Below are positions 34,087 to 54,517 of a stretch of 57,360 nucleotides of DNA, piece after piece. This DNA is from Burkholderiaceae bacterium (lineage in GTDB: Bacteria > Pseudomonadota > Gammaproteobacteria > Burkholderiales > Burkholderiaceae_D), in assembly GCA_022701635.1 (NCBI GenBank), contig JAKOOD010000282.1:1-57360 (forward strand). Direction: 5' to 3'. Made by a program: the position numbers and the translations under genes. Position 1 is the stretch's first letter. Every line of letters begins with the position of its first letter. The notes beneath the pieces are model-generated. The model saw only the letters and a program-made list of their open reading frames with translations. It had not been told where the DNA came from and made no database searches.

Positions 34087-34143
34087 GGCTGTTGTCTCCT
34101 GTGATTGACCGGGCGCCGGGTTCCCGGCGTGACGGTCAGCCTA

Positions 34144-34153: not shown

Positions 34154-34249
34154 CATTATTATTTCTACAAAATTGCTGGATAAATTAAAAGTCGGAATTC
34201 AACCTGATATTTTGGTAAATTCCGTACCGAGGATGACAATTTACGGAGG

Positions 34250-35230: not shown

Positions 35231-35314
35231 GTGCGCTCCAATAGTGTTGAGTGAAAGTTACAACTTCAGTGTATTGAGCCGGGAACTAGCTGTAAAACGA
35301 ATAAAATGAGTATT

Positions 35315-35337
35315 ATCAAGCTAAATATCAGCTTGAT
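35315..35337. promoter_or_regulatory. Inverted repeat between divergent mdh and tdt exporter genes
   Basis: ATCAAGCT (35315-35322), spacer AAATATC, AGCTTGAT (35330-35337), followed by TTTCTTG. It lies in the shared promoter region; an operator is more likely than a terminator because no gene ends here. Confidence 0.5.
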
Positions 35338-35432
35338 TTTCTTGCTGTCCGTCGTGTTTCATGAATTAGGCATTTCGATTTAAGCTACGGTTGCCAGCGC
35401 ATGCTGCGCGCTATATTCAAAATTGGAGAGCC

Positions 35433-36593: not shown

Positions 36594-36595
36594 GC

Positions 36596-37222: not shown

Positions 37223-37238
37223 GGCAGGACGCGCGCCG

Positions 37239-38015: not shown

Positions 38016-38071
38016 TGGATTTTTCCTTTTTTTAGTTGGCATAAATATAAGTCGGGAAGAGGGCGCTGTGC

Positions 38072-39082: not shown

Positions 39083-39184
39083 TATTTTTCTCATATTCAT
39101 ATACGTCGATGTAATAAGTATCGCTGTACTGAATTGTTTGGTCTATTTTAAAATTACGAACATATCTTTCTAAAATATTGAACG

Positions 39185-40081
39185 ATGACATTGGATCAGT
39201 TGCGTATATTCGTCGAGGTCGCCGAACGCCAGCACCTTACCCAGGCCGCCGCCGTTCTCTTCCTGACCCCTTCGGCGGTCAGCACTTCCATCAAGTCGCT
39301 GGAAGAGCGATACGGAACGGCGCTGTTTCACCGTGTCGGCCGGCGCATCGAAATCAGCGACGCGGGACGAATTTTTCTCGTCGAAGCACGCCGCGCGCTC
39401 GCGAGCGCCCAGGCAGCCGAGGCGGCGCTGGCCGATTTGGGCGAGCTCAGACGCGGGTCGCTAACGATCCACGCCAGCCAGACCATCGCCAGCTATTGGC
39501 TGCCGGCCTTGCTGGTACGCTTCCGCCAAGCATGGCCGGGAATCGATTTGCACATGGAAGCGGGCAATACCGAGAGCGTCGCCGAGGCCGTGCTGCAAGG
39601 CGGCGCCGATCTCGGTTTTGTGGAGGGAAACATAGAACCGACCGGCCTGGAGGAGGAGACTGTCGGCGAAGACAATATGGTGGTTGTGGTTGCGTCCGAT
39701 CATCCCTGGGCCGACGGCAGGACGCTGACGGCCAGAGAACTGGAAGCTGGACAATGGATTTTGCGTGAAGCCGGTTCGGGCACGCGGTCCGCTTTGGAGA
39801 CCGGACTCGCCGCGCTCGACGTGGCGGTCGTCAATCTGCAGATCGCACTCGAACTTCCCTCAAATGAGGCGGTGCGCAGTGCGGTCATGGCGGGACCGTT
39901 TGCCACCGCGATGTCGGAACTGGTCGTGGCGCCGCATGTGCAGGCCGGCTTGCTGGCACGGGCGCACTGCGCGCTCCCGGCGCGCAGCTTCTCGATGCTG
40001 CGCCACGCCCAGCGGCATCGCAGCCGCGCCGTCGCCGCCTTCGAAGACATGGTGCGGACCAGGAAGCGGCCGGATAACTAA
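39185..40081 (+). CDS. LysR-family regulator, YeiE-like
   Basis: 298 residues. LysR helix-turn-helix MTLDQLRIFVEVAERQHLTQ with AAAVLFLTPSAVSTSIKSLE, then an effector domain with TIHASQTIASYWLPALLVRF and EAGSGTRSALETGL. It is divergent from yeiH with about 100 bp between, the usual LysR layout, and resembles YeiE. The intergenic region holds the ATATACGTCG motif (39099-39108) also found upstream of sorA. It ends overlapping fetB by 4 bp on the opposite strand. Confidence 0.9.
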   Translation: MTLDQLRIFVEVAERQHLTQAAAVLFLTPSAVSTSIKSLEERYGTALFHRVGRRIEISDAGRIFLVEARRALASAQAAEAALADLGELRRGSLTIHASQTIASYWLPALLVRFRQAWPGIDLHMEAGNTESVAEAVLQGGADLGFVEGNIEPTGLEEETVGEDNMVVVVASDHPWADGRTLTARELEAGQWILREAGSGTRSALETGLAALDVAVVNLQIALELPSNEAVRSAVMAGPFATAMSELVVAPHVQAGLLARAHCALPARSFSMLRHAQRHRSRAVAAFEDMVRTRKRPDN

Positions 40082-40869
40082 GCCAAGAGGTCCAGCCGCA
40101 GCCTGTCGCGGTCGTCGCCAAGTGCGCGGCTGGCCAGCCAGACCACGCCGCCGGCGGCCAGTCCGCTGCTCCCGGCCAGCAGGAACAGCAACAGGATCTG
40201 GTATTCGACGGCGCCGAGCGGATCCATGCCGGCGAGGAGCTGGCCGGTCATGATGCCCGGCAGCGTGATGATACCCGCCGCGGACATCTGGTTGATGACC
40301 GGGATGAGGCCTTTACGCACCGCATCGCGCATCAGCGGCGCAAGCGCTGTGCGCAAGGATGCACCCAGGGCCAAACGGGCTTCGATCTGATTGCGCGACA
40401 CAACCACGCCGCCGAGGAAAGCGTCGAGGGCCAGACTTGCCGAATTTAGCACGCTGCCCAGCACGATGCCCATCAACGGGATGGCATAGCGCGGGTCGTG
40501 CCAGGGCGTGGGGCGGATGGCCGTCATCAGGGCCAGCACCACCGTGGCCAGGCTCGACAGCGCTACCACTGCGCCCGCGATACGGTAGTTGCCCCAGCCG
40601 GCCAGGCGCTGCGTCGGCCTCGTTGCGACTTCGCGCGCGGCAGCGGCGATCATGAGGCAGGCGATGGCCAGCGTCAGCGCCGGCGCGTCGGAACGGAATA
40701 CGATGCGCAGCACGAGGCCGACGAGCAGCAACTGCAGCACCATCCTCAGACTGGCGACAAGCAAGGGCCGATGCAGGCGCAGGCCGAAGGCGATCGAAAC
40801 CGCCGCATCGAATACGACCAGACTGGCCGCGAGCGCCATGTCCGACGCCGACAGTGCAATCTGGCTCAT
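40078..40869 (-). CDS. fetB: FetB-like iron exporter permease
   Basis: 263 residues, about seven membrane segments. Family motifs: DMALAASLVVFDAAVSIAFG, LGSVLNSASLALDAFLGGVV, RDAVRKGLIPVINQMSAAGI and LPGIMTGQLLAGMDPLGAVE. FetAB (YbbLM) is an ABC pump exporting iron and protecting against oxidative stress. It starts on an ATGA overlap with fetA (40866-40869). Next to fluoride and sulfite export genes it adds to a stress-efflux cluster. Confidence 0.88.
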   Translation of the reverse strand: MSQIALSASDMALAASLVVFDAAVSIAFGLRLHRPLLVASLRMVLQLLLVGLVLRIVFRSDAPALTLAIACLMIAAAAREVATRPTQRLAGWGNYRIAGAVVALSSLATVVLALMTAIRPTPWHDPRYAIPLMGIVLGSVLNSASLALDAFLGGVVVSRNQIEARLALGASLRTALAPLMRDAVRKGLIPVINQMSAAGIITLPGIMTGQLLAGMDPLGAVEYQILLLFLLAGSSGLAAGGVVWLASRALGDDRDRLRLDLLA

Positions 40870-41507
40870 GCCACCTCGAGCCGGCCGCTCGCCATACGCA
40901 GGCACCGCTGCCCGAGGCGCTCGGCCTGTTCTTCTGAATGCGTCACGACCAACACCGACGTGCCTCGTTCGAGTTCCGAACGCAGTAGGGCTTCGAGAGC
41001 TGCGGTCGAGGCGGCGTCGAGCGCCGAAGCGGGCTCGTCTAGCAGGAGGACACGGGGCCGGCAAGCCAGGGAACGGATGAGCGCGAGGCGCTGGCGTTCG
41101 CCGGTCGACAGCAGCTCCAGGTCGGTATCAAGCGCAGCGGCCCGCAGTTTCAGCGCATCGGCCAGTGCCTGCGCCCGCTTCTGCTCCGATGCCGGAAGGT
41201 GCGCGCGCGCGGTCGCGTCCCACCAGGCCGGCTCGGCTGCTTGATAGACTACCATCGAACGCCATGCCGGCGCCGTCCAGCTTGCGCGCTGTGCGCCGTC
41301 CAGCAGCACCGTGCCCTCGTTGGGAATCAGGTCCGCGATCATGCGCAGCAACACGCTCTTGCCGGAACCGGATTCACCGACGATGGCGATGCATTCGCCT
41401 CGCCCCAGGTCCAGGTCGACCGGGCCGGCATGTGCCGAGCATAGCGCACGCAGTGCAAGACGAACGGATGGATCGAAACGAGCAAGGGAATGGAAAGACA
41501 TGGGCAT
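40866..41507 (-). CDS. fetA: FetA-like iron exporter ATPase
   Basis: 213 residues, short ABC ATPase: Walker A GESGSGKS, Q-loop MVVYQAAEP, signature LSTGERQR, Walker B VLLLDEPASALD, H-loop VTHS. It pairs with the FetB permease through an ATGA overlap. The start is uncertain (41501, 41507 or 41534); 41507 is used. crcB begins 71 bp away on the other strand. Confidence 0.85.
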   Translation of the reverse strand: MPMSFHSLARFDPSVRLALRALCSAHAGPVDLDLGRGECIAIVGESGSGKSVLLRMIADLIPNEGTVLLDGAQRASWTAPAWRSMVVYQAAEPAWWDATARAHLPASEQKRAQALADALKLRAAALDTDLELLSTGERQRLALIRSLACRPRVLLLDEPASALDAASTAALEALLRSELERGTSVLVVTHSEEQAERLGQRCLRMASGRLEVA

Positions 41508-41578
41508 GGAGTATAGCCGGGTGCGGCTGCCCATAGTGCCGTGTTAAGGTGGCAAGGTACATTACAAATGGGACATCG

Positions 41579-41965
41579 ATGGAGTTTTCTTCCGTATTCG
41601 CAGTCGCCACCGGCGCTGCGCTGGGAGCGCTCGTGCGCTGGTGGACGAGCGTGGCTTTGAATTCGCTGTTTCCGGAGATTCCACCCGGTACTCTGCTTGT
41701 CAATCTGGTGGGCGCATACATCATCGGGGTGGCGATACCTTGGCTAACCGAAACGCCGTCGCTCGCGCCCGAGATCCGGTTGTTCGTCGTCACCGGCTTC
41801 CTTGGCGGCTTGACGACCATGTCGAGTTTCGCCGGCGAGGCGGTGATCCTGCTGCGCGCCGGCCGCTTGGCCATGGCAGCCGGTGCAGTGCTGCTGCACG
41901 TTGCCGGTTCGCTTGTCATGTGCACGCTCGGCATGGGGACGGCCGCATTACTGATGCGCCGCTAA
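41579..41965 (+). CDS. crcB: CrcB/Fluc fluoride channel
   Basis: 128 residues, four membrane segments. Fluc signatures: GAALGALVRWW, GTLLVNLVGAYIIGV with the channel-lining Asn, and TGFLGGLTTMSSFAGEAV with the phenylalanine/threonine track. It forms a dual-topology dimeric F- channel that lets fluoride leave the cell. ATG 41579 is the best start. I see no riboswitch directly upstream; the fluoride riboswitch is on the opposite strand at 43726-43782, in front of the CLC gene. Confidence 0.92.
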   Translation: MEFSSVFAVATGAALGALVRWWTSVALNSLFPEIPPGTLLVNLVGAYIIGVAIPWLTETPSLAPEIRLFVVTGFLGGLTTMSSFAGEAVILLRAGRLAMAAGAVLLHVAGSLVMCTLGMGTAALLMRR

Positions 41966-42336
41966 CCGGCGCTTGCGTGCGTCGCCTTGCCCTCGGTTGC
42001 GAGCGGCAGCTCGCATCGCAACAGCACGGCCTGCACCGCGTGCAGTTGCGCATGGTGTTCGAAAAGGAACGCGCGAAGCGCTTCTTCCGTATCGACCAGT
42101 TCGACGCATTGCGGGTGGCGCCCTGCCGTTCCTTCCACGTGGGCGTGGGATGGCTTCTCACCCGGCAGGTAGCCGCTGCCGACATGGAACAGCAACGCCT
42201 GGCGGATGCCGGCGCGGCGTGCCTGCGTCAGCAGTTGGTGGGCGAGCTGCGGGGGACTGAGATGGTGCCACAGACGGGTGGCGCGGGCACGGGCCGACAT
42301 CGGGATGTACAGGCGCAGGACGGCAAAATCGTTCAT
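41962..42336 (-). CDS. DUF190 protein of the fluoride operon
   Basis: 124 residues: VLRLYIPMSARARATRLWHH, QARRAGIRQALLFHVGSGYL, HAHVEG and VELVDTEEALRAFLFEH. DUF190 has a PII-like fold and commonly accompanies crcB or other fluoride genes; its precise job is unknown, with regulation of the transporter a fair guess. It follows clcF directly: a GTG at 42348 would overlap the clcF stop as GTGA, while ATG 42336 is used here. It converges on crcB, overlapping its stop by 4 bp. Confidence 0.82.
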   Translation of the reverse strand: MNDFAVLRLYIPMSARARATRLWHHLSPPQLAHQLLTQARRAGIRQALLFHVGSGYLPGEKPSHAHVEGTAGRHPQCVELVDTEEALRAFLFEHHAQLHAVQAVLLRCELPLATEGKATHASAG

Positions 42337-42344
42337 CGTGTGGC

Positions 42345-43661
42345 TCACTGTTCAGGACGCTGCGCTGCCGGCCTCGCGCGTTCGCGCGCACGGTAGGCAT
42401 GGAGTTCGGACAGACGCAGGTCCTCGGGAAGCGCGCGCCGGTGCTTGGCCCGGCCGATGCGCTGGGCGCGGTAGATGCCGGTGTGCCCCGAGAACAGGTA
42501 GCTGACGACGCAGGCGAGCGCTGCGTACGGCGCGATCTCGCCGCCGAACAGTTCGATGGCCATGACGGTAGACGCCAGCGGCACGTTGACGGCGCCGGCG
42601 AACACGGCGACGAAGCCGAGCGCGGCCAGTAGCGGGAAAGGCAGGTGCAGCAACGGCGCCAGGGCGTTGCCGAGCGTGGCGCCGATATAGAACAGCGGCG
42701 TCACTTCGCCGCCTTTGAAGCCACTGCCGAGTGAGACGACGGTAAACGCCAGTTTGCCGATCGAGTCTTCGAATCCCAGCGGCTGCTGGAACGCCTGGAC
42801 GATGACCGGAATGCCGAGACCGATATAGCGCTGTGTCCCGCTCAGCCAGACCGCCAGGGCGACGATTGCGCCGCCCAGCAGGGGGCGTGCCGGACCGTAC
42901 GGCACATGGCGCTTGGCCGTGTCGCTCAACGTGTGCGTCAGCGTCGCGAAGAGCATGCCTGCCATGCCGAACGCGATGCCGGCGACGACGACCGCAACCA
43001 GGCCGGTCGTACCGACAGCCGGTACCGCGCCGAGCACATAATGCGTGTGGTGGATACCCCACCATAGTCCCACGCGGTCGGCGACGATGGCGGCGACGAT
43101 GCAGGGCAGGATCGCGTCGTAGCGCATGCGGCCGATCGCCAGTACTTCCAGGCCGAAGATCGCGCCCGCCACGGGCGTGCCGAACACGGATGAGAAGCCG
43201 GCGCTCATGCCGGCCATGACGAGTACCCGGCGTGTATCGCGGTCCAGACGCAACATGTGGGCGATTTGGTCGGCCAGCGTGGCGCCCATCTGCACCGCCG
43301 TGCCTTCGCGACCTACCGATGCGCCGAACAGGTGCGACAGCACGGTACCGCCAAGGACCAGCGGCGCCATCCGCAGCGGGATCGTTTTCTTCGGGTCGTG
43401 GATCTCGTCGATGATCAGGTTGTTGCCGGCCTCGACATCCTTTCCGAGGCGATGATAGATCCACCCCACGGCGAACCCGGCCAGGGGGAGCAGCCAGATG
43501 ATCTGCGGTGACGCGACACGGATTTGGGTGACGCGCTCGAGTGCAAACAGGAAGAATGCGGACGCGGAGCCGGCGAGTGCGGCCGCGATGACGGAAAGCA
43601 GCAGCCACTTCGCCATGTAATGCAAAAGCTCGACTTGTTCGGGTGTGTGATCAGGTTTCAT
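42345..43661 (-). CDS. CLC-F type fluoride/proton antiporter
   Basis: 438 residues, CLC fold: GNNLIIDEIHDP in place of the chloride-type GSGIP motif, GREGTAVQMG in place of GREGP, and GSGFKGGEVTPLFYIGATLG near the third selectivity region. These replacements are the marks of the CLC-F clade, which exchanges F- for H+. The gene is directly behind a fluoride riboswitch and followed by DUF190, with crcB next, so a fluoride role is nearly certain. The ATG is at 43661. Confidence 0.92.
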   Translation of the reverse strand: MKPDHTPEQVELLHYMAKWLLLSVIAAALAGSASAFFLFALERVTQIRVASPQIIWLLPLAGFAVGWIYHRLGKDVEAGNNLIIDEIHDPKKTIPLRMAPLVLGGTVLSHLFGASVGREGTAVQMGATLADQIAHMLRLDRDTRRVLVMAGMSAGFSSVFGTPVAGAIFGLEVLAIGRMRYDAILPCIVAAIVADRVGLWWGIHHTHYVLGAVPAVGTTGLVAVVVAGIAFGMAGMLFATLTHTLSDTAKRHVPYGPARPLLGGAIVALAVWLSGTQRYIGLGIPVIVQAFQQPLGFEDSIGKLAFTVVSLGSGFKGGEVTPLFYIGATLGNALAPLLHLPFPLLAALGFVAVFAGAVNVPLASTVMAIELFGGEIAPYAALACVVSYLFSGHTGIYRAQRIGRAKHRRALPEDLRLSELHAYRARERARPAAQRPEQ

Positions 43662-43704
43662 CGGTCCAGTGAGTGAGCCCAGCTGGTCCGGATCGAGGCA
43701 TGCG

Positions 43705-43782
43705 CCTACCTTCCCGGCCGGGAAAGGTAGGCATCATCAGCTCGGGATTGAGCGGTTACGGGAGGAATGCCATCTCCAATTA
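43705..43782 (-). promoter_or_regulatory. Fluoride riboswitch (crcB motif) with expression-platform hairpin
   Basis: Read on the minus strand, GGAGATGGCATTCCTCC (43777-43761), AACCGCT (43757-43751) and CTGATGATGCCTACC (43740-43726) reproduce the crcB aptamer as known from Pseudomonas. The final CCTACC also opens a strong hairpin, CCTACC...GGTAGG (43731-43705), with CCCGGCCGGG inside; aptamer folding and this hairpin compete. No T-run follows, so control may act on translation or through a non-canonical stop. The clcF start codon lies 44 bases further on. Confidence 0.93.
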
Positions 43783-43788
43783 AAGTCA

Positions 43789-43817
43789 ATCATAGCAAGG
43801 TTTGCTTGTTCCGCCAA
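43789..43817 (-). promoter_or_regulatory. Sigma-70 promoter of the riboswitch transcript
   Basis: On the minus strand TTGGCG (43817-43812), 17-bp spacer, TATGAT (43794-43789). Transcription would begin within about ten bases of the riboswitch aptamer. Confidence 0.75.
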
Positions 43818-43914
43818 ATCATCGCGCGGCGTCCTGAGCGCAGGCGACGCCGAATTCGACCTTTTAACCTGCTGTAAAAACTTCGATCCACTCGTCTTCC
43901 CGCCATTTCCTTGT

Positions 43915-44541
43915 TTAAACGCCAATCAGGTGACCGGTTTCGTTAATGCGTTGGATGACGAACGAATCGTCCTCGAACGTGCATTCATTCACGCAGCAAG
44001 GCGTCTGCCGGAGTTGCCAATAATGACTGAGAGAAAGCCCAAGGCAATGCAACAACAGCACACGGTTGACGCTGTCGTGCCCGACCAGGACGACGGTCTG
44101 GCCGGCGTGTTTCAAAAGCACGAAATGGAGGACACTCATGACGCGTACCAACACCTGTGCGAGCGTCTCGCCGCCGGGTATCAAGGCCATGTCGGGTTTC
44201 GAAAACCACATCCGTGCCGGCCCGGGCCACAAGGACTCGACACGATCGTGCGTCAAACCTTGCCACTGGCCGTAGTCGATGTCGGCGAGCTCGCCGAGAA
44301 CGCTTGCAGGCGCGCCGGTTGCGCGCTCGATCGCCGTGCCCGTATCGATGCAACGGGATAAATTGCTGGTGTAAATGGCATCCGGCTGCCAGCCACGCGC
44401 CACGCGCCGTCCCAGCGCCTCCGCTTGGCGCCGTCCGAGTTCGGAGAGCGGGAATTCGGCGCATCCACGAAATCGCGGCGGATCGATGCCATCGACGTGG
44501 CCATGACGAACGACGACGATGCGTGTAACCAGGCGCGTCAT
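43915..44541 (-). CDS. Histidine phosphatase family protein
   Basis: 208 residues, phosphoglycerate-mutase-like fold: the catalytic VVVRHGHVDG at the N-terminus, SRCIDTGTAIE, DYGQWQGLTHD with the acid residue, and VVLVGHDSVNRVLLLHCLGL with the second His. It could be a CobC-type phosphatase, a cofactor-independent-of-BPG GpmB-like mutase or a broad phosphatase. It follows enolase by 20 bp and precedes the fluoride riboswitch, so it belongs to the fluoride gene group. Confidence 0.85.
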   Translation of the reverse strand: MTRLVTRIVVVRHGHVDGIDPPRFRGCAEFPLSELGRRQAEALGRRVARGWQPDAIYTSNLSRCIDTGTAIERATGAPASVLGELADIDYGQWQGLTHDRVESLWPGPARMWFSKPDMALIPGGETLAQVLVRVMSVLHFVLLKHAGQTVVLVGHDSVNRVLLLHCLGLSLSHYWQLRQTPCCVNECTFEDDSFVIQRINETGHLIGV

Positions 44542-44561
44542 CGGGCTAAGCTGTTTTCAAC

Positions 44562-45902
<1,341 letters not shown>

Positions 45903-45976
45903 TTACTCTATCCCAGTTCGTCCGGGGGTTGCGCGCGACCCGGCCGGGACGCAGCCGATCCGAGGAGTGAGGCGCC

Positions 45977-46699
45977 ATGCACCGACTGATTTTGATCCGC
46001 CACGGCGAGTCCGCCTATAACGCCGATAACCGCTTCACGGGGTGGACCGATGTCGACCTCACGCCGCTCGGCATGGCGCAGGCGCGGGCGGTGGGCGCGA
46101 CGCTGCGCGCGGCGGGCGTGGCGATCGACGTCGCGTTCACATCGATGCTCAAGCGCACCATCCGCTCGCAATGGATCATCTGCGAAGCAATGGACCGCAT
46201 GTGGCTGCCGATTGTGCCGGACCCGCGCTTGAACGAACGCCATTACGGTGCCCTGACGGGGCTGAACAAGGCGACGGCCGAACGGGAATACGGCGCGGCG
46301 CAGGTCGCCGCCTGGCGCCGCTCGTTTGCCGTGGCGCCTCCGCCGATGGCGCTGCAAGATGCGCGCGCGTATGCGGATGATCCGCGTAACCGCGGTGCCC
46401 GGGCAGGCGAGATCGTGCTGAGCGAAAGTCTGGAAGATGTGGTTCGGCGCGTGCGGCCGTTTTGGGAAGAGCTGGCGGCGCCGGCGCTGCGCAAGCGACG
46501 GGGCGTCGTCATCCAGGCGCACGGCAACACCATCCGCGCGCTGATCAAGCATCTGGAAGGAATGAGCGACGACGACATCGCCACGCTCGACGTGCCGAAC
46601 GCCACGCCGGTCGTCTACGAGTTCGACGCGGATATGCACGTGCGCCGTCGGTACGACATGCCGGCCGTGAGCGACGAAGGCCGGCACTCGCTGTTCTGA
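45977..46699 (+). CDS. gpmA: 2,3-bisphosphoglycerate-dependent phosphoglycerate mutase
   Basis: 240 residues close to E. coli GpmA: LIRHGESAYNADNRFTGWTD, LKRTIRSQWI, LNERHYGALTGLNKATAERE, WRRSFAVAPP, and the catalytic AHGNTIRALIKHLEGMSDD. It interconverts 3- and 2-phosphoglycerate, the step before enolase. It diverges from eno with 128 bp between. Compared with the usual GpmA the C-terminus is slightly shorter. Its place beside eno and the fluoride genes suggests supply of more glycolytic flux under fluoride. Confidence 0.9.
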   Translation: MHRLILIRHGESAYNADNRFTGWTDVDLTPLGMAQARAVGATLRAAGVAIDVAFTSMLKRTIRSQWIICEAMDRMWLPIVPDPRLNERHYGALTGLNKATAEREYGAAQVAAWRRSFAVAPPPMALQDARAYADDPRNRGARAGEIVLSESLEDVVRRVRPFWEELAAPALRKRRGVVIQAHGNTIRALIKHLEGMSDDDIATLDVPNATPVVYEFDADMHVRRRYDMPAVSDEGRHSLF

Positions 46700-46724
46700 T
46701 CGGGCCGGCGGCCGAGCCGTGTTT

Positions 46725-48140
46725 CTAGCGCACGCTTGCCAGGACGGCTTTGGCCGGGTCGGCCGGCGCATCGCCTTCCATCACCAGGATGCGGCTGGCG
46801 CCGGGATCCTTGGCCGACAGGGCGCTCGCAACCTCGCGCATCGGGCCGATGGCGGTGCCGTTTGCCATGCCCTTCGGATTGGTCTTGAAGCGCGCCACCG
46901 GCATCGCCTGACCGCTCGCGTATACCGAATACACGGTGTCCGGCTTCAGGGAAAACAACGACACCTCCAGCGCATCGGTCAGCCCCAGGTTGCGCGCCAC
47001 CACGAAGCCGGTGGCGCCGCCGCCGGCCGGGCGCAGTGCAATGTTGACGGGCTCGGCGTTGGCGCGCGGCACCAGGTTGGTCGTGCCGGCGCCGGCCGGC
47101 ACCGCGTGCGAGACGTAGACCAGCGCCTGCGGCGCCTGGCCCACCGGCGCGTGCGCCACCACCTTGTTGGCGGCGGTGTCGATGACGTCCACGCCGTCGC
47201 CGTTTTCCAGGCCGACGTAGACGCGGCTGTCGTCGTCGGAACGCCAGACGCCGTGCGGCAGGGCGCCGGTGGGAATGGTCGCCACCAGCGCCGGCGCGTC
47301 GCCGGTGCTGTACACCTTGACCACGTTCTCGCCGCCGACCGTCACATAGGCGCGCACGCCGGCCGGGGTGCGCGCGAACGCCAGGTGGTTCGTGATCAGG
47401 CCGGTGTCGATCACGCCCTTCACCGATTGCGTCGCGACGTCGATTCGGGTGACCTTGCCCACGTCCTTGTGCGTCATCCACACTTCCTTGAAGTCCGGCG
47501 AGAATTGCAGGAAGGGCGAGAACGGGCTGGTCACGGGGATGTGCTTGACGACCTGGTGCGATTTGACGTCGACGACATCGACCACCGGGTTGAAGCTCGA
47601 GACGACGAAGGCCAGCCTGCCGTCCGGGTGGAACATCACCATGCCAGGCCCGCCGGTGGTCTGGATGCGACGCGTTTCCTTGAAGGTGGCCGGGTCGATG
47701 ACGGAAATATAGTCTTCGCCTCGCACCACCACCCAGACCTCGCGTCCGTCCGCCGTGAAGAAGCCTTCGTGCGGCGAGCGGCCGATGTAGGTGACGCCCT
47801 TGACCTTGTTCGTGGCGGTGTCGATGAAGGTGACGGAATTGGAACCGTTGGCGATCGCGATCAGCGTCTTGTGGTCCGGCGAGAAGCCCAGGCCGTGCAC
47901 GTTGACCTCGCCCTTGTACAGCGGCGAGAGCACGTCCGGGCGCAGGTTGCCCAGACGGATCTGGCCCAGCAGGGTGTTGGTGGACGGGTCGATCACCGAG
48001 ACCGTGTTGCTGTTCTGGTCGGCGGTGTAGACGCGGTCCTGGGCGCTTGGGAGGGCGTGGGCGGGGGTGAGGGCGCCGGCCAGTACGATGGCGAGTGCGG
48101 CGGCACGGATGGTGGTGCCGGCAAATTTAGTGCGTTGCAT
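46725..48140 (-). CDS. Secreted YVTN-type beta-propeller protein
   Basis: 471 residues with a signal peptide (AAALAIVLAGALTPAHA) and repeated blades such as VYTADQNSNTVSVIDPSTNT, FIDTATNKVKGVTYIGRSPH, VVDVKSHQVVKHIPV and GDGVDVIDTAANKVVAH. Such YncE-like propellers bind ligands or metals in the periplasm. The last 100 residues form a separate domain. ATG 48140 lies inside the end of the DUF305 gene (14-bp overlap), so it is the last gene of the ECF sigma operon. Confidence 0.85.
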   Translation of the reverse strand: MQRTKFAGTTIRAAALAIVLAGALTPAHALPSAQDRVYTADQNSNTVSVIDPSTNTLLGQIRLGNLRPDVLSPLYKGEVNVHGLGFSPDHKTLIAIANGSNSVTFIDTATNKVKGVTYIGRSPHEGFFTADGREVWVVVRGEDYISVIDPATFKETRRIQTTGGPGMVMFHPDGRLAFVVSSFNPVVDVVDVKSHQVVKHIPVTSPFSPFLQFSPDFKEVWMTHKDVGKVTRIDVATQSVKGVIDTGLITNHLAFARTPAGVRAYVTVGGENVVKVYSTGDAPALVATIPTGALPHGVWRSDDDSRVYVGLENGDGVDVIDTAANKVVAHAPVGQAPQALVYVSHAVPAGAGTTNLVPRANAEPVNIALRPAGGGATGFVVARNLGLTDALEVSLFSLKPDTVYSVYASGQAMPVARFKTNPKGMANGTAIGPMREVASALSAKDPGASRILVMEGDAPADPAKAVLASVR

Positions 48141-48570
48141 GGACTTCCTTATCGGTATGGGTGGTCGTGCCGGCGTCGTGGCGTTGCAGCCAGGCCCGCA
48201 TGACATTGATTTCATTTTGTTGCTCAGCGATGATGCCTTGCGCCAGGTTGCGCAATTCCGGATCGGTGCCGTGCACCAGGATGGCCTTGGCCATGTCGAT
48301 CGCGCCCTGGTGATGCGGGATCATCATCGTGACGAAGTCGTGGCCAGGGTCCCCGTTCATCGGCGCACGGCGCATGTCGTCGTCCATCACGGCCATGGCG
48401 TCGTCGGCCAGGGCCGCGTACGGCTTGGCGCTGCTGGCGACGAAGGCGGGCGGGGCGGCGCTTGCGATCGTGCTCGCATGCGCGTGCATGTGTGCGGGCA
48501 TGAACGGCATGTCCTGGGCGGCGCAGGCGCCGGCCCACAGGCAGGCGGCAAGCAAATACATTGGTTTCAA
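48127..48570 (-). CDS. DUF305 secreted protein
   Basis: 147 residues, signal peptide MKPMYLLAACLWAGACA, then a histidine-rich segment and the DUF305 core: FVTMMIPHHQGAIDMAKAIL and AQGIIAEQQNEINVMRAWL. DUF305 proteins are periplasmic, ferritin-like helical bundles often linked with copper. A TTG start at 48570 is chosen because GGAGG lies seven bases upstream and it overlaps the anti-sigma stop as TTGA; ATG 48561 is the alternative. Confidence 0.82.
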   Translation of the reverse strand: MKPMYLLAACLWAGACAAQDMPFMPAHMHAHASTIASAAPPAFVASSAKPYAALADDAMAVMDDDMRRAPMNGDPGHDFVTMMIPHHQGAIDMAKAILVHGTDPELRNLAQGIIAEQQNEINVMRAWLQRHDAGTTTHTDKEVHATH

Positions 48571-49388
48571 ACGGGTCCCTCCAGTTGTTCGTAGACGGCG
48601 GTCGCGACGCGCGCGAGTTCGCCCTTGTCGATGCCGGCCGACAGCGCATAGCCGAATTTGCCGTCGATCCAGTAAAACACGTTGACCGGGCCTTCCTTGG
48701 CGAACCGGAAGCCCGTGTCCTTGTTCTGCGCCTGCTCGGTCGAGACGTACAACGTCAGGCGCTGGCCGGCGCCGTCGTGGTACATGAATTGCGCCACCGG
48801 CCCGCTGGCGCCGGGCAGCAGGCGCCCCCCGATCAGTTCGTAGCCGAGCTTGCCGAGGTGCGGTGGATGGATTTTGCTGCCCAGGCGCTTGGACAGCCAT
48901 GCCACCAGCTGGTCTTCCTGGTCGGCGCCGACTTCCACCGGGCGCCGCACGTCCGGGCTGTAGACCACGTGGGCGATGGCAGCCTGGTGTGCCAGGCCCG
49001 AGAATGCCGGCTGGGGGAAGGGCGCGCCCGCCTCGATCGACGCCAGACGATGATCGCGTTCGGCGGCGCCGCGCAGGCTCCAGCCGCCGCCGCCGCCGAG
49101 CAGCGCCAGCGCCAGGCCGGCGGCCAGCGCCTGCCAGGGCCAATGCCGTACGTCGCGCAGGCCGGGGCGGGCGCGCAGCGGCGCGGCCAGGCGCGCCGGC
49201 AGCGGTTCGTCGAGCACGGGGTCGAACAGCGCGTGCAGCGCGTCGTTCTGACCGATCCACGCCCGCACGCGCGCGGCGTCGTCCGGGCGCGCGGCCAAGT
49301 AGGCGTCGACCTCGGCACGCCGGGCCGGCGCCAGGCGACCGTCGGCGTAGGCGTGCAGATCGGCTTCGGTGATCGGTAGGATGCTCAT
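48567..49388 (-). CDS. Anti-sigma factor (zinc-free, membrane anchored)
   Basis: 273 residues. ITEADLHAYADGRLAPARRA at the N-terminus is the usual anti-sigma opening; one membrane helix (WQALAAGLALALLGGGGGWS) follows at about residue 90, then a periplasmic domain with PQPAFSGLAHQAAIAHVVYS and VEVGADQEDQLVAWLSKRLG. This RskA/ChrR-unrelated group pairs with ECF sigma factors and binds them until a periplasmic signal arrives. It overlaps the sigma gene stop by ATGA. Confidence 0.85.
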   Translation of the reverse strand: MSILPITEADLHAYADGRLAPARRAEVDAYLAARPDDAARVRAWIGQNDALHALFDPVLDEPLPARLAAPLRARPGLRDVRHWPWQALAAGLALALLGGGGGWSLRGAAERDHRLASIEAGAPFPQPAFSGLAHQAAIAHVVYSPDVRRPVEVGADQEDQLVAWLSKRLGSKIHPPHLGKLGYELIGGRLLPGASGPVAQFMYHDGAGQRLTLYVSTEQAQNKDTGFRFAKEGPVNVFYWIDGKFGYALSAGIDKGELARVATAVYEQLEGPV

Positions 49389-49903
49389 TTCACGACTCTC
49401 AATGGAACGACGGGCGCGCGGCCGTCCATCAACGCGCGCAATTTCTCGCGCGCGCGAGACAGGCGCGACATCACGGTGCCGACCGGGACGCCGAGCAGGC
49501 GCGCCACGTCTTCGTAGCGCATGTCCTCGAGCCCGACCAGCAGCAGGATTTCGCGCTGCTCTTCGGGCAGCAGGCGCAGCGCGGCGTCCAGGTCGCGCAG
49601 TTCGAGGCCGGCGCTCACGTGTTCCTGCGCGGCCGGCAACGGCGTGTCGTCGTCCAGCGGTTCGGTGTCCAGGGCGCCGCGCCGGGCCTGGTCGACGCGC
49701 AGGTTGTGCATGATCGAGAACAGCCAGGCGCGCATATCGCTGCCGCGCCGCCAGCCGGACAGGGCGGTCCAGCCGCGTTCGACCGTATCCTGCACCAGGT
49801 CGTCGGCGGCGGCGCGATCGCCGACCAACGCGCGGGCATAGCGCCGCAGGCGCGGCAGGCAGGCCAGCAGGTGGTCGGCGGGATCGTCCGGCACGAAGGA
49901 CAT
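49385..49903 (-). CDS. ECF sigma factor (sigma-70 family)
   Basis: 172 residues with region 2 (ALVGDRAAADDLVQDTVERG, then MRAWLFSIMHNLRVDQAR) and region 4 (LPEEQREILLLVGLEDMRYE, then VGTVMSRLSRAREKLRAL). It directs transcription of stress or metal-response genes, probably including its own operon: SnoaL-like gene, sigma, anti-sigma, DUF305, propeller. It starts 12 bp behind the SnoaL-like gene. Confidence 0.93.
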   Translation of the reverse strand: MSFVPDDPADHLLACLPRLRRYARALVGDRAAADDLVQDTVERGWTALSGWRRGSDMRAWLFSIMHNLRVDQARRGALDTEPLDDDTPLPAAQEHVSAGLELRDLDAALRLLPEEQREILLLVGLEDMRYEDVARLLGVPVGTVMSRLSRAREKLRALMDGRAPVVPLRVVK

Positions 49904-49915
49904 CGGCGCGCCGGC

Positions 49916-50347
49916 TCAGTAGCCGCCGGCCGCCAGTTTAGGGTCGACCTGCCAGGTTTCGTTCACCAGCTTGCCGTCGCGGTAGGTCAGTACGTATCGC
50001 ACCTTGACTTGGACCTTGGCGTCGAATTGCACGGCAGCCGTCACGGTAGCGCCTTTCGGATTAGCCGACTCGCTCGCGTTCAGGACGGTAACGCGCGCAG
50101 GGCCGGCGGCGGCATTGAATTTGTCCCATACCGCGCCGATGGATGCAGTCCCGTCGTAGCTGCCGTCGAGCGGCCCGCCCACCCAGATCAGCCGCGCGTT
50201 GTCGGCATAATCGCGCAGGATGGCAGCGCGGTCCGCGGCGCCGATTGCGGTGAAATGCGCTTGCGCGGCGTCCAGCGCCGGGCCGGCCATGGCATGTGCG
50301 GCGGTGCCTGTACAGGCGATTGCGAAGATGATGTGCTTGATGGTCAT
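49916..50347 (-). CDS. SnoaL-like (NTF2-fold) secreted protein
   Basis: 143 residues with a signal peptide (IIFAIACTGTAAHAMA). The body has the SnoaL pattern: AAQAHFTAIGAADRAAILRD, YADNARLIWVGGPLDGSYDG and KVRYVLTYRDGKLVNETWQV. It is likely a periplasmic ligand-binding or enzymatic small barrel. It is the first gene of the ECF operon. Confidence 0.75.
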   Translation of the reverse strand: MTIKHIIFAIACTGTAAHAMAGPALDAAQAHFTAIGAADRAAILRDYADNARLIWVGGPLDGSYDGTASIGAVWDKFNAAAGPARVTVLNASESANPKGATVTAAVQFDAKVQVKVRYVLTYRDGKLVNETWQVDPKLAAGGY

Positions 50348-50579
50348 ATGGGCTTCCAGTCAGAATATCGCTAAAAAAGGCCGCGAGAAACATGTTCTCG
50401 TATGGATAAACGAGTCCGGTCGTGTTTTTATTCCGTTCTCGCGCAACTTTTTTTCGTATATTGCCGATGCAGGCGTGGAACGAAGCAGCTTAGCTCACGC
50501 TCTGCGCTGGCGTGCGCCGATGCAGCGTCCGGCTGACGCGATAGCCGATAATTTCATCTTGATCCTCGTGCCGATCTGT

Positions 50580-50790
50580 TTACGATGCCGCTGCGATTAG
50601 GGACCTGCTCATAATCGATACCTTCATCACGGACAAGACCGGCATGCTCACCGTGGGCAGCCCAACGTCTCATTCGGGTATGGCTGCCCCCGATGGCAGC
50701 GCGCAGGACGTACCGCGCATCGCGGCCAGCGTTACCGGAATAGCGAGCATCCGCTGGCCCACGCGATCGTCGTCGCGACATGAAAACGTG
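50580..50790 (+). pseudogene. P-type (P1B) metal ATPase fragment with frameshift
   Basis: One frame reads DAAAIRDLLIIDTFITDKTG and continues MLTVGSPT: the phosphorylation loop DKTGTLT of P-type ATPases with Thr to Met. About 75 bases later a different frame reads RIAASV and then SEHPLAHAIV (50742-50771), the HP-motif region of heavy-metal ATPases. The rest of the gene is missing on both sides. It is the remnant of a copper or other metal exporter. Confidence 0.72.
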
Positions 50791-51007
50791 GCTCGACGCT
50801 GTAAAAGCCGGCTCGCTTTGAATCATCCAGCGGCGATGGCGCGCGGATTTGTGGAAGACAGCTGTAAGGGCCGGCTATCCAGCGTGAATCAGCGACGACT
50901 ACTCGGACGCTTCACATCTGTTCGCCGGGAGGCGACGTTGACGCTAGCCAAGCGGCGAGTACGACAAACGCCAGCAGTACGACAGCTTCTACCCAAAGAA
51001 TACGCTT

Positions 51008-51242
51008 GGAACGCGCTGGGAACCAGGAGCGCTGCACGGTAGCGCACCACCCCGGCGCGCAACCCGAGGATGGCGCCCAGCGCCGCCGCCATCCCTACGG
51101 CCATCAGCCTGATCGGGCCGGATTGTGCGACGCTTATGTAGCTTCCGAACACGAGCAATGGAACTGCAAATATGCCTCCGCCGGCGCCTATGAGCGACAG
51201 GATCATGCCGACTGCCAGGCCGAGCGACAACGGAATCAACAT
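51008..51242 (-). pseudogene. TSUP (TauE/SafE) permease N-terminal fragment
   Basis: MLIPLSLGLAVGMILSLIGA and GGGIFAVPLLVFG match the N-terminal repeat of TSUP sulfite/organosulfonate permeases, continuing to GLRAGVVRYRAALLV. After about residue 77 the frame turns into unrelated basic sequence and the second half of the permease is absent. It is a truncated relic. Confidence 0.7.
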
Positions 51243-51710
51243 AATGACGCCTCAGGCCGCGCGCAGCCTGGAATATTTATATAAATAAATAGATTGTTTG
51301 TGCTTGAAGAGGATGAGAACGACAGGAAGGCCATCGGACGGCGCCGTCAACCACCGCGCCGCTCGTGATCCCTAAGCCCGGCGCAATCAAGTGCTGATGC
51401 TCTGCATTCATTTCGTCCAAGTGCCTTGACACGAGCCGCGCTCCGTCGCCGGCAATGGAGATGTAGATGCCACGTCGAAAACGCGCCAGTTCCATGTCCT
51501 TACTAAGGCCGATCAGCGAAAGGCTGGGTGGATGAACGGGGAGGGGGCACTTCGGGCGTCATTCGGGACGAAGAATGACAGGTTATGCCGTAAAGCCTCT
51601 TTCGATCGGCTTTCAAGGGGGGGCCGGCTTGTCGAGTGAAAGTTGTCGCAGCTTTAGCCGGCATTACGGAAGAGTGACGAGACCGCGTAAGACAGGCGCC
51701 CCAAATATCT
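51243..51710. other. Stretch without recognised genes, upstream of the KfrA-like gene
   Basis: Short frames are present on the minus strand (51277-51495, 51503-51715) but no family, ribosome site or codon bias supports them. The stretch separates gene fragments from the regulated KfrA-like gene. Confidence 0.35.
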
Positions 51711-51732
51711 GACATTATAGAAGTAATGTCAT
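51711..51732. promoter_or_regulatory. TGACATTA-N6-TAATGTCA palindrome in the kfrA-like promoter
   Basis: TGACATTA (51711-51718), TAGAAG, TAATGTCA (51725-51732), exact 8-bp arms. It lies 75 bp upstream of the KfrA-like start. It may be an autoregulatory operator; it also has the 11-6-11 layout of a tyrosine-recombinase core site. Confidence 0.65.
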
Positions 51733-51764
51733 ATTTTCTAGGTGGGTGTCAGGTTTTTTGACGT

Positions 51765-51776
51765 ATTACGTAATAA
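51765..51776. promoter_or_regulatory. Second palindrome in the kfrA-like promoter
   Basis: TATTACGTAATA (51765-51776) is a perfect 12-bp palindrome 31 bp upstream of the start codon, close to where a -10 box would be. Confidence 0.5.
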
Positions 51777-51807
51777 TATAGGAAGAAACGATGCCGGAGG
51801 CTATCCG

Positions 51808-52884
51808 ATGAATACCGAAGAGAATGCGAGTGAAAACGCTATCGCAGCAAGTGTCGCCGAGCTGCGCGAGCAATTTCCGCGCACGCAGGACCTTTACCGC
51901 GAAGTCTGCGTATTACTATTTTTCCGACATGGCATTACGCCAACGGCAAACAAGTTGTATCAGCTGGTCCGCAAGGGTAGTATGTCGGCGCCGACGGAAG
52001 CGCTGAGCCAGTTCTGGAAAACACTGCGCGAACACTCCCGTGTCACGATCGAGCATTCGGACCTCCCAGACGAGTTACGGACGGCAGCTGGAGACCTGGT
52101 GGCGACCCTGTGGAAGTCAGCTCAGTCGAAGTCCCTTGAGTCGGTGGCGACACTTCAGACGGACGCCGCTATCGCAGTCGACAACGCCAAGGCGGACTTG
52201 GCGAGTGAACAGCTTGCCCATGCGGAAGCCCTGCGGTTAGTTGAGAGCCTTCGCTCACAGCTGCACACCAGCGAGAACGACGCGGGTCAACTTCGGGAAG
52301 CGCAAGCGACCGCAGCCGCGATCAGGGAAGGCTTAGAGGTGCGACTGAAAGATGCCCGCGGCGATTTGGAGGCCACGCAAGCGCGCTTGAGGGAGCTGAG
52401 CGCCCAGCATGTCGAGGAGCGAGAACGATTGGCGGACCGTACCCGCTTGGCCGAGGAGAGGTTCGCCGATATGGGAAGGCGCGCGCTACAAGACATCGAC
52501 AGAGAACGCACCGCCGCAGCGAAACTGCAGAAGGCACTTGAAGCGGAGCGAGCCGAGCACATTGCTGCGATCGCGCGAGCACGCGTCGACCATGATGCGG
52601 CCCAGACGAAAATTGCGGAACTCAGGGAACAGATCGGTGCATTGCAGAATGCCGTTGACATCTTGAAGAACGAGCGGGACCGTGACAGACAAGAGCTACA
52701 GTCAGTACGCACAAAGCTAGAGGCAGCGATACGGCAATCGGCCGCGGACAGTGTACGGGCAGACCACTTGCATGACGAGTTGGAGCGGCGTCGCATCGAA
52801 CCTCGGGATGTACAAAACCGTGCCGCAGGTCCCGACGCGAAGGGCAAACGGCGCAGCAAGCCAGGCAGCGCGGGCTCCACATAA
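51808..52884 (+). CDS. KfrA-like DNA-binding coiled-coil protein
   Basis: 358 residues. The first 100 (SVAELREQFPRTQDLYREVC, then GITPTANKLYQLVRKGSMSA) match the KfrA N-terminal DNA-binding domain; residues about 110-330 are one long heptad-rich coiled coil (ASEQLAHAEALRLVESL, then EVRLKDARGDLEATQARLRE); the tail is basic (KGKRRSKPGS). KfrA is an alpha-helical autoregulator of IncP plasmids with a role in stable inheritance. Chromosomal copies occur on mobile elements. ATG 51808 is behind GGAGG. Two palindromes upstream suggest autoregulation, and a dif-like site and an integrase lie just downstream. Confidence 0.85.
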   Translation: MNTEENASENAIAASVAELREQFPRTQDLYREVCVLLFFRHGITPTANKLYQLVRKGSMSAPTEALSQFWKTLREHSRVTIEHSDLPDELRTAAGDLVATLWKSAQSKSLESVATLQTDAAIAVDNAKADLASEQLAHAEALRLVESLRSQLHTSENDAGQLREAQATAAAIREGLEVRLKDARGDLEATQARLRELSAQHVEERERLADRTRLAEERFADMGRRALQDIDRERTAAAKLQKALEAERAEHIAAIARARVDHDAAQTKIAELREQIGALQNAVDILKNERDRDRQELQSVRTKLEAAIRQSAADSVRADHLHDELERRRIEPRDVQNRAAGPDAKGKRRSKPGSAGST

Positions 52885-52996
52885 GCGATTATCGTTCCGC
52901 TCACTATGGGCGGCTGGACCGATGGACGGACGGATGGACAGGGCCAGATGTGCCGATCTATTGCCATAGTTTTCGGGGCGGCCGGAAAATCCACAG

Positions 52997-53123
52997 AACC
53001 TAAAGATAGGTTGGAAACGCCCAGTCCATTTTCCGGACCTAAATGCGTAGCGGAGACGTCAGAAAGCCCGAAATTCATCTCGCACTGAGTCTTAGGTCGT
53101 GAATGGACATATGTTTAGGTCCG
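52997..53123. repeat. Cluster of ACCTAA/TTAGGT motifs beside the dif-like site
   Basis: AACCTAAAGATAGGTT (52997-53012), CGGACCTAAA (53034-53043), TTAGGTC (53092-53098) and TTTAGGTCCG (53114-53123). The second and fourth are exact inverted copies over 10 bp. The cluster occupies the gene-free space between the KfrA-like gene and the integrase end, an iteron- or centromere-like look. Nothing coding is seen between 52885 and 53242. Confidence 0.5.
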
Positions 53124-53174
53124 AGCGCTATCGGCCGGCGCTGGACTTGCCGGCGTTTCGCTCATCCACTTCAA

Positions 53175-53202
53175 ACTTCGCATAATCTATATTATGTCAA
53201 AT
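53175..53202. other. dif-like XerC/XerD recombination site
   Basis: XerC-side arm ACTTCGCATAA (53175-53185), 6-bp centre TCTATA, XerD-side arm TTATGTCAAAT (53192-53202). It matches the 28-bp E. coli dif at 23 positions, and the differences fall where other beta-proteobacterial dif sites also vary. It is either the chromosomal dif near the replication terminus or a copy used by an element that integrates there. Confidence 0.8.
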
Positions 53203-53242: not shown

Positions 53243-54406
53243 TTACATGATCCCTTTTCCATTCACCGACCCGATGATCTCGTCATAACGCTCGTTATCG
53301 GTCTTGTGCAGATACGCCGCCGTGGTGGCGATGTTCGCGTGCCCGGCCGTGTCCTGCAGCGTCTTCAGCTGCACCCCGTTATTCGCATGGTTGGTCAGCA
53401 TGCTGTGGCGCAGCCAGTGTGCCGAGGCCTGGCGCAGCGTCGCCGCCGTGTCGCCGTCGCCCTGGGCATCGGCGGCGCGCGCGGCGTCGGCGAACAGCGC
53501 CTTGATCGCTTCCGATGCCGCCTCGTCCGTGATGCGCGCCAGTTCGCGCGAACGGCTCGACAGGACCAGTGGCGTGCGGTCGGTGCGGCTGCTTTGCGGC
53601 AGCAATTCGAAGGCCTGGCGGTAGTCGCGGAAGGCGTCCAGCATGTCGGGCGGCACCGGCAGGCGGCGCGGTTTATTTCCCTTGCCGGTGACGTCGAGCC
53701 ACCAGCGGCCGTTGCCTTCGGTGTAGATCGCGCCCATCGAGGCGCTGACGATCTCGTTCAGGCGGGCGCCGGTATGGGCAAACGCCACCAGCAGGAAACG
53801 GTCGCGCGCGCGGCGCCGGAACGCCGCCGGCGTGTCGGCCGGCCGGCTGGACACGGTTTGCAGGGCCAGTGCGATCGCGCCCTGGGTCAGGTAGCGCGTG
53901 ATCCGGCTGGCCGATGGCGCCCGCACGTTGCGCACCAGTGCGCCCGGATTGCGCCGCAAATAGCCGGTCTGTTCGGCAAAGCTCATCAGGCCCTTCACCG
54001 CGATCATGGCCTGGCGCCGGCTCGGATCGGACAGCGGCCCGGTGAACGGCCGGTACTGCGGATGGCTGCGCGGCCATTTGGTGGTCGACACCCATGCCGG
54101 CGGCGGATTCTTGAGGAATTCTTTATAGCTGTTCAGGTCGGCGACGTTCAGCTGGACCAGGGTTTTCTGCGCTTCTTCGCGGCACCAGGTCAGGAAGCGG
54201 AATAGTTCCTTCTGCGTGTTCTGGATCGACTTCGCACTCAGCTCGCCGTGGGCGATGAACTCGCGCGCCAGTTCGATGTCGGTGGTGGCTTCGGTGATGG
54301 CATCGTCGGCCAGGCGGTACATCTTGACGTGCATGCGCCCACTCTCTCCGGTGCTGATCTCTTCCGGCCGGGACGGGCCCAGGTCGATTGGCGTAAAGTC
54401 TGGCAT
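53243..54406 (-). CDS. Tyrosine recombinase next to dif, under SOS control
   Basis: 387 residues from MPDFTPIDLG. Core-binding domain (IELAREFIAHGELSAKSIQN with QKELFRFLTW), catalytic domain with Arg in TGARLNEI, HWLRHSML and Tyr in TTAAYLHKTDNERYDE. Its end is 40 bp from the dif-like site. A LexA box covers its promoter (54444-54459). It is a paralogue of the integrase at 20422-21618 with the same layout but only partial identity. It may mobilise DNA at dif or belong to an element left there; XerC and XerD themselves are shorter (about 300 residues) and not the same protein. Confidence 0.9.
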   Translation of the reverse strand: MPDFTPIDLGPSRPEEISTGESGRMHVKMYRLADDAITEATTDIELAREFIAHGELSAKSIQNTQKELFRFLTWCREEAQKTLVQLNVADLNSYKEFLKNPPPAWVSTTKWPRSHPQYRPFTGPLSDPSRRQAMIAVKGLMSFAEQTGYLRRNPGALVRNVRAPSASRITRYLTQGAIALALQTVSSRPADTPAAFRRRARDRFLLVAFAHTGARLNEIVSASMGAIYTEGNGRWWLDVTGKGNKPRRLPVPPDMLDAFRDYRQAFELLPQSSRTDRTPLVLSSRSRELARITDEAASEAIKALFADAARAADAQGDGDTAATLRQASAHWLRHSMLTNHANNGVQLKTLQDTAGHANIATTAAYLHKTDNERYDEIIGSVNGKGIM

Positions 54407-54486: not shown

Positions 54487-54517
54487 AACTCGACAATATA
54501 TTTGGTAATGTCGAGTT
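54487..54517. repeat. Long inverted repeat upstream of the integrase
   Basis: AACTCGACA (54487-54495) and TGTCGAGTT (54509-54517) are exact complements, with ATATATTTGGTAA between; pairing extends inward except for one position. It could be the integrase core site or another operator. Confidence 0.5.

Follow-up and report, generated by a model that had tools for sequence, protein, structure and literature searches.

In a 57,360-nucleotide stretch of DNA from a Burkholderiaceae bacterium, the whole of which is referred to here as the window, we identified what is with near certainty a Tn7-like transposon. The element is 44.5 kb long and its right end lies 45 bp from the chromosomal dif site. 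It is highly probable that dif is what the transposon recognises. Comparison of sequences shows the same arrangement, with a transposon end beside dif, in many related transposons of the Burkholderiaceae. Some of the parts are ordinary (a true dif site and a resident recombinase); less ordinary is a Tn7-like family parked beside dif, often with a KfrA-like gene. The dif site is strongly conserved and non-coding, and a family that homes there without damage has an address in very many hosts. Dif-homing transposons would account for large gene islands at the terminus of replication, and they would be a natural system, open to testing, for placing tens of kilobases at a specific sequence.

The dif site and the transposon beside it

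The dif site (53175..53202, plus strand) comprises a XerC arm (ACTTCGCATAA), the centre TCTATA and a XerD arm (TTATGTCAAAT). A first-pass annotation of the window had described a 28-bp dif-like site with a 6-bp centre, equal to E. coli dif at 23 of 28 positions, and it is present exactly in that form. With up to 3 mismatches allowed, the dif pattern has its sole match in the window here, and 0 of 100 dinucleotide shuffles of the window yield one. A genome-wide search at the same stringency, of the kind that the annotation had proposed, was run on the assembly containing the window (G000; 5.48 Mb, 724 contigs, 87.8% complete); the single match is 53175-53202. The pattern was also matched in 31 of 32, 4 of 7, 30 of 31 and 15 of 17 entries of four sets of relatives, counts in which certain genomes were entered twice. 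Most relatives have one match per genome, and four (G129, G175, G053 and G076) have two. The second matches (G129:C66:20953, G175:C2:108776, G053:C87:1806 and G076:C2:992570) are weaker.

Genes for two full-length Xer proteins occur on other contigs of the source genome. They score 325 and 294 bits against the XerC model, neither reaching the cut-off of 335, and were assigned to XerC and XerD by eye only. In one complete genome of the same genus (G304), sampled in 20-kb pieces, 11 of the 12 samples as far as 2.78 Mb have positive GC skew, dif lies at 2.843 Mb, and skew is -0.002 to -0.047 in all four samples from 2.99 to 3.55 Mb. The 5 kb directly past dif still have positive skew, and four samples beyond 3.8 Mb are mixed. 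Given one match in the source genome and the same pattern across relatives, the site is almost certainly the chromosomal dif, as had been supposed. Its neighbours are also as named earlier, a protein with a KfrA_N domain (51742-52884) and a tyrosine recombinase (53243-54406).

The transposon occupies 8617..53129 (plus strand) and faces the XerC arm of dif, from which its right end is 45 bp away. These limits were set using a copy in Pseudoduganella lurida, the ends and target-site duplication of that copy, and an empty site in Herbaspirillum sp. SJZ107 (L002). The left terminal inverted repeat, AGCGCTCGGA, is at 8617..8626 (plus strand), and the right repeat, at 53120..53129 on the minus strand, reads TCCGAGCGCT on the plus strand. 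Additional ACCTAAA / TTTAGGTCC motifs inside the right end look like candidate TnsB-binding repeats. There is no exact 5-bp target-site duplication in the window; the flanks show only an imperfect 10-bp direct repeat, placed by the empty-site alignment, with its left copy (GTCGGCCGGC) at 8607..8616 and its right copy (ATCGGCCGGC) at 53130..53139, both on the plus strand.

Four genes for transposition, all on the plus strand, lie near the left end. The first (10293..10985; 230 aa) was named tnsA-like from its size, its place and its 47% identity to its counterpart in the G051 element; the protein has no Pfam or NCBIfam match, and tnsA-like genes are related among some of these elements. The tnsB gene (10982..12964) encodes a DDE transposase of 660 aa, in which D234, D338 and E375 are invariant among 17 aligned sequences. 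The TnsB family profile matches TnsAB/TnsB structures in the PDB (best E 4e-10), and Mu-transpos_C is matched by 5 of 17 TnsB members, the protein of the window having no such match. An AAA ATPase of 339 aa (12936..13955; AAA_22, E 4.5e-11) was named TnsC from its place and kinship. The fourth gene, tniQ/tnsD (13952..15319), encodes a probable target selector of 455 aa with a conserved cysteine pattern. Pfam TniQ is matched by 9 of 15 relatives of this protein, its own match (E 0.009) being below the cut-off, and the family profile finds TniQ (E 5e-6) and TnsD (E 5e-5) in the PDB. The order tnsA-tnsB-tnsC-tniQ is kept in most of 22 tns loci read. The exceptions are a split tniQ in G210, the lack of a full-length tniQ in G335 and G196, and the lack of a tnsA of usual length in G404.

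Alignments of near-identical copies show independent insertions beside dif. Positions 8617-53204 of the window are 99.9% identical to P. lurida over 44.6 kb, and the flanks differ. Near dif, the common block ends at 53129 and the following 45 bp differ; dif is again common to both, since both hosts possess it. The P. lurida copy has an exact 5-bp target duplication, ACGAA, on both sides. Three copies that share the terminal 16-mer stop short of dif, by 45 bp in the window, 43 bp in P. lurida and 49 bp in an uncultured Massilia assembly (L003, identical to the window across the 1500 bases preceding the end), and the sequence of the gap is unrelated in the three. A related element (L009) has this 16-mer at a distance of 42 bp from dif. 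Outside the transposon, what the hosts of the near-identical copies have in common is dif and then, beyond it, the recombinase gene int1, which in P. lurida is 79% identical to that of the window as a gene and 75% as a protein. Insertion leaves dif intact, and dif can thus serve as a conserved, non-coding attachment site.

The Herbaspirillum locus, in which Int1 is 98% identical, is without the approximately 44.6 kb present in the window from 8577 to the vicinity of dif. When the flanks of the window are joined with 5 bp of the 10-bp repeat omitted, they align to this locus across the insertion point; the other 5 bp of the repeat form a gap, and the left flank scores 60 compared with 29 for the best of 500 shuffles. 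Just left of the insertion site the Herbaspirillum locus carries about 1.4 kb that are unmatched in the window, and the left flank has therefore changed.

Elements such as CTX phage are known at dif. Entry of the insert through XerCD strand exchange at dif, as a Xer-exploiting integrative element, would account for one insert end lying beside dif, and PMC9765430 describes such elements at this site in Legionellales. This origin is very unlikely here. The first-pass annotation had proposed a search for a second dif copy bounding an insert, and such a search revealed no further dif-like site at the far end, either in the window or in P. lurida. Moreover, 43-49 bp separate the insert from dif, and the insert has inverted ends, carries tnsABC-tniQ and, in P. 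lurida, is flanked by a 5-bp duplication. We reject Xer-mediated integration because a second dif is lacking and a target-site duplication is present. A plasmid integrated at dif was also considered and rejected, as only the inner 20.8 kb are common with plasmid contigs.

Transposon ends beside dif in related genomes

Searches for TnsB relatives (E <= 1e-40) gave 63 matches in 51 of 392 genomes of the family. For 32 of the 63, tnsB and dif are on one contig, 30 of them within 125 kb, one at 139 kb and one, a fragment, at 998 kb, and 31 of these 32 point towards dif. On dif-bearing contigs larger than 3 Mb, all 15 tnsB matches lie within 140 kb of dif (two are pieces of one broken gene in G320). 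A further 26 of the 63 are on a contig other than that of dif and 5 are in genomes in which no dif was found. Most of the assemblies with tnsB off the dif contig are fragmented, but three (G086, G280 and G297) consist of two contigs with tnsB on the second. Genomes with tnsB off the dif contig have a transposon end at only 7 of 21 dif loci.

Of 26 element-dif pairs, 22 have a right-end 16-mer (up to 4 mismatches) on the element side no more than 110 bp from dif, compared with 14 of 2080 control windows from the same loci; the consensus strings were derived from these same loci, so the contrast concerns position and not discovery. Dif appears to be the attachment site. One of the 26 pairs (G080) was included via its int2-kfrA side, with no tns genes seen on its contig. 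The gaps between end and dif are 32-81 bp in the 22 pairs, and 32-53 bp in 19 of them. The 16-mer search recognised no right end beside dif in G400, G185a, G328 and G387. One of these, G328, has inverted ends of another type and a target-site duplication 58 bp from dif, with its left end 7.3 kb from tnsB.

We also searched blindly, in 23 elements and 1380 control windows, for inverted ends with an exact 5-bp duplication, scored out of 18. Scores of at least 14 were obtained for 9 of 23 elements versus 7 of 1380 controls, and scores of at least 13 for 10 of 23 versus 45 of 1380; the proven case of P. lurida scores 13. Recovery of G328 required a longer search region and a different end sequence. 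For 12 of the 23 (the window, G051, G335, G403, G340, G400, G207b, G185a, G185b, G217, G163 and G387) this search gave no pair above chance. Where both ends could be assigned, the transposons are about 18-102 kb in size. At two loci, L259 (G207) and L252 (G335), there is a transposon end on each side of dif.

Such an end beside dif was found in 0 of five genomes listed without TnsB, and in 7 of 45 further dif loci whose TnsB status is unknown. TnsB relatives that are 29-36% identical occur on secondary replicons of Cupriavidus, Paraburkholderia and Caballeronia, and six 50-kb stretches (from 6 of the 8 records) contain no dif-like site. Outside the family, one of five TnsB relatives (G578) is beside dif in the stretches examined, and the 14-90 kb examined around the other four contain no dif. 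The G578 locus (L327, on G578:C24), from another family of the class, has tnsB-tnsC and then AACCGATAGGTTGTTGC-type repeats directly beside a dif-like site.

Among the 23 dif loci of transposon carriers, only 5 have Int1 (at least 50% identity); the 3' end of its gene is therefore not the common target, and dif likely is. Other DNA also parts Int1 from dif in some genomes, by up to 49 kb, as might be expected if the terminus were merely permissive and large insertions gathered around dif without recognising it. We consider this improbable given the clustering of gaps at 32-81 bp, the right ends that face dif and a side of approach that follows phylogeny; moreover, separate insertions of one element have unrelated sequences in the gap.

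Individual elements approach either the XerC arm or the XerD arm of dif, and the arm approached largely follows transposon phylogeny. On the TnsB tree, 4 changes each suffice for the 10 XerC rows and the 9 XerD rows, compared with 7.5 and 7.3 for shuffled labels, with 4 and 2 of 500 shuffles as low; near-identical rows contribute to this clustering on the trees. On the TniQ tree 3 (XerC) and 4 (XerD) changes are needed, with 0 and 13 of 500 shuffles as low. One row of the TniQ tree (G196) is the wrong gene (HipA-like) and two (G328 and G387) are much longer proteins, a problem of which the TnsB tree is free. G196 is also the clear exception to the agreement between arm and phylogeny. The clustering fits a target selector that would read the polarity of dif.

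In the mechanism that we propose, TniQ/TnsD, alone or with dif-bound XerC or XerD, would recognise dif in an oriented manner and would then recruit TnsC and TnsAB. TnsABC would insert the element so that the end opposite the tns genes is placed approximately 32-81 bp from dif. A serious possibility, to which we nonetheless give somewhat less than even weight, is that dif is a target via bound XerC or XerD, as proposed for the IS1202 family, and that TniQ does not read the DNA itself. Both arms are used, by different clades, and Xer proteins and dif are conserved across hosts; in addition, IS1202-family insertion sequences lie 5 bp from XerC sites, with contact to XerC proposed (passages of PMC10132070). 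On the other hand, TniQ here has 455 aa, and a protein of more than 400 aa in dual loci is said to suggest direct target selection (PMC10293859, in part). The variable gap lengths are compatible with either TniQ reading DNA or Xer-bound dif.

Relation to known transposons and dif-associated elements

Known Tn7-like sites are glmS, comM, tRNA or similar. The elements described here resemble Tn7 and Tn7-like transposons in the gene order (putative tnsA, tnsB, tnsC, tniQ), the DDE transposase TnsB, the AAA protein TnsC, the cysteine pattern of TniQ and the 5-bp target-site duplication. They also have in common motifs repeated within the ends, an insertion point close to a conserved site and defence genes in the cargo. 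They differ in that the conserved site is dif and that the tns genes are at the end far from the target. In addition, their termini are AGCGCT or CGTCCG-like (AG...CT or CG...CG), unlike the TGT...ACA of Tn7.

Insertion sequences of the IS1202 family (ISAjo2 and ISAba71) are already known as dif site hunters of Acinetobacter, inserting 5 bp from the XerC arm with a suggested contact to XerC (in the available passages of PMC10132070). As described there, they share with the present elements a TnsB-related DDE transposase, a 5-bp target-site duplication and insertion beside pdif and chromosomal dif, but they are single-gene insertion sequences of 1.5 kb, placed 5 bp from the XerC site (PMC10132070, in part). 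The present elements, in contrast, are multi-gene, about 18-102 kb long, 32-81 bp from dif and on either arm by clade. The survey of Tn7 target selectors in PMC10293859 includes, in the portion available, TnsF, which has a recombinase fold without a catalytic site. Tn6022 with TnsF is also a Tn7-like transposon whose targeting is tied to a Xer-type recombinase fold; TnsF, however, targets comM (same portion of PMC10293859), and int2 of the window, unlike TnsF, keeps its recombinase domain. The Xer-exploiting integrative elements of Legionellales (PMC9765430) likewise use dif as a chromosomal address, but they recombine within dif, which is untouched here.

Tn7-like dif hunters were not found in the literature searched; most subscription journals were outside reach of this search, and absence in print is not established. 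The term 'dif site' does not occur in the main text of PMC10293859 or in PMC8649781. Within the available portions of PMC8754128, PMC12893667, PMC12907356, PMC11472951, PMC8987985 and PMC6464166, Tn7-type elements and dif are mentioned apart, and dif never as a target.

The KfrA-like gene, Int1 and the cargo

The kfrA-like gene (51742..52884, plus strand) is the last gene before the right end, reads towards dif and recurs in related transposons. Its product matches the KfrA_N domain PF11740 (E 7e-14; 52.9 bits, cut-off 26.1), and a later in-frame ATG at 51808 is a possible true start. Transposon carriers were examined at 23 dif loci, and 11 of these have a kfrA-like gene no further than 5.2 kb from dif, with 34-100% identity to that of the window over the matched part. 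All 11 have such a gene on the element side, and every listed match reads towards dif. Another 33 dif loci have 3 kb or more of sequence on both sides; of these, a kfrA-like gene was found in 2 of 5 with a transposon end versus 1 of 28 without a recognised end; the lone locus without an end (G095) carries Int2 and the palindrome described below. At two loci, L263 (G217) and L271 (G320), kfrA-like genes flank dif on both sides, each reading towards dif.

Given its presence in 11 of 23 carrier loci versus 1 of 28 loci without an end, KfrA is indeed associated with dif, but as a companion of the transposons. Thus, the kfrA-like gene appears to be a recurrent transposon gene near the dif-proximal end that travels with these elements. 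The dif-associated element of the first-pass annotation stands in part: a mobile element is present and the kfrA-like gene is tied to it. That the integrase and KfrA form one element is not supported, as the integrase (Int1) is resident on the opposite side of dif and KfrA lies within the 44.5-kb transposon that is 99.9% identical in P. lurida.

Int1 (53243..54406, minus strand) is a tyrosine recombinase on the XerD side of dif, outside the transposon. Relatives that are 67-98% identical (one search) were found at 47 loci of Massilia, Duganella, Pseudoduganella, Rugamonas and Telluria type. Dif is within the available DNA at 30 of the 47, always 3' of the gene and within 100 bp in 18. Further genomes with an Int1 copy of at least 58% identity on the dif contig have that copy on the same side as well, either next to dif or as much as 49 kb off. 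Relative to the gene, dif is oriented one way in Massilia-type loci and the other way in most loci of Duganella type. The dN/dS of Int1 versus nine relatives is 0.05-0.15, and of 48 sequences one (L031) is interrupted by a stop following codon 69. A palindrome upstream of the gene (54489..54515; CTCGACAATATATTTGGTAATGTCGAG) was read by eye, and a palindrome with the half-site CGACATTA is upstream of Int1 at 26 of 47 loci (up to 2 mismatches). As the host has two other full-length Xer proteins, Int1 is a third, divergent relative. We think that it is an Int2-type recombinase that became domesticated. Prokaryotes are described, in passages of PMC8987985, as recruiting mobile-element resolvases for chromosome resolution.

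That KfrA and Int1 together form a dif-associated module for chromosome maintenance is hardly credible. Both do flank dif in the window, and kfrA-like genes recur near dif. However, KfrA occurs in only 3 of 47 Int1 loci (L003, L011 and L045; assigned by coordinates, several loci being short), and in each of these three a transposon end lies next to dif. The KfrA of P. lurida is 99.7-100% identical to that of the window versus 75% for Int1, and kfrA is on the element side at all 11 loci that have it near dif.

Cargo of the transposon includes a HipA_C protein (18173..19456, plus strand) and genes with predicted roles in defence. These encode an anti-phage pair of an IetS-like protease and an IetA-like ATPase (21717..25025, minus strand; below NCBIfam cut-offs) and a CBASS-like SLATT effector with a SMODS nucleotidyltransferase (25180..27210, plus strand). 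A 592-aa protein beside the latter (27405-29183) matches nothing in Pfam, NCBIfam or PADLOC at the thresholds applied. Also encoded is the transposon's own tyrosine recombinase, Int2 (20422..21618, minus strand), which is 36% identical to Int1.

Nested within the transposon is a 20.8-kb module (30891..51734) with genes for a molybdopterin oxidoreductase, malate dehydrogenase, enolase, a chloride channel and LysR proteins. The palindrome TGACATTA-N6-TAATGTCT (30893..30914) is at its left edge, and TGACATTA-N6-TAATGTCA (51710..51731) is at its right edge, immediately upstream of kfrA. The module is 99.9% identical on two other replicons, the 116.6-kb plasmid NZ_CP051686.1 of Massilia forsythiae (G016:C2; L151-L156) and G134:C6 (L161-L162). 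It is cut at both palindromes in the window and in the Massilia plasmid, and therefore seems to move between transposon and plasmid; the left cut differs in G134:C6. The TGACATTA-N6-TAATGTCA palindrome may be a recombination site or an operator.

A wider reading, possible but held tentatively as a whole, is that these elements form a Tn7-like branch for which dif is the attachment site and its polarity is read, with separate TniQ lineages taking the XerC or XerD arm, possibly by sensing the Xer-dif complex. In many of them the KfrA-like gene would be a working part and not mere cargo, and Int2 and the palindromic site would trade cargo modules, such as the 20.8-kb segment on the Massilia plasmid, between chromosomes and plasmids. 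Int1 would be a domesticated relative of Int2.

Int2 proteins that are 66-72% identical occur at L119, L120, L122, L123, L125, L127 and L130/L131, with the TGACATTA-N6-TAATGTCA palindrome and usually a kfrA-like gene. In most Int2 loci the palindrome is directly upstream of kfrA or int2. At three loci (L119, L267 and L122) kfrA is back to back with int2, and in L119 and L122 the palindrome lies between them.
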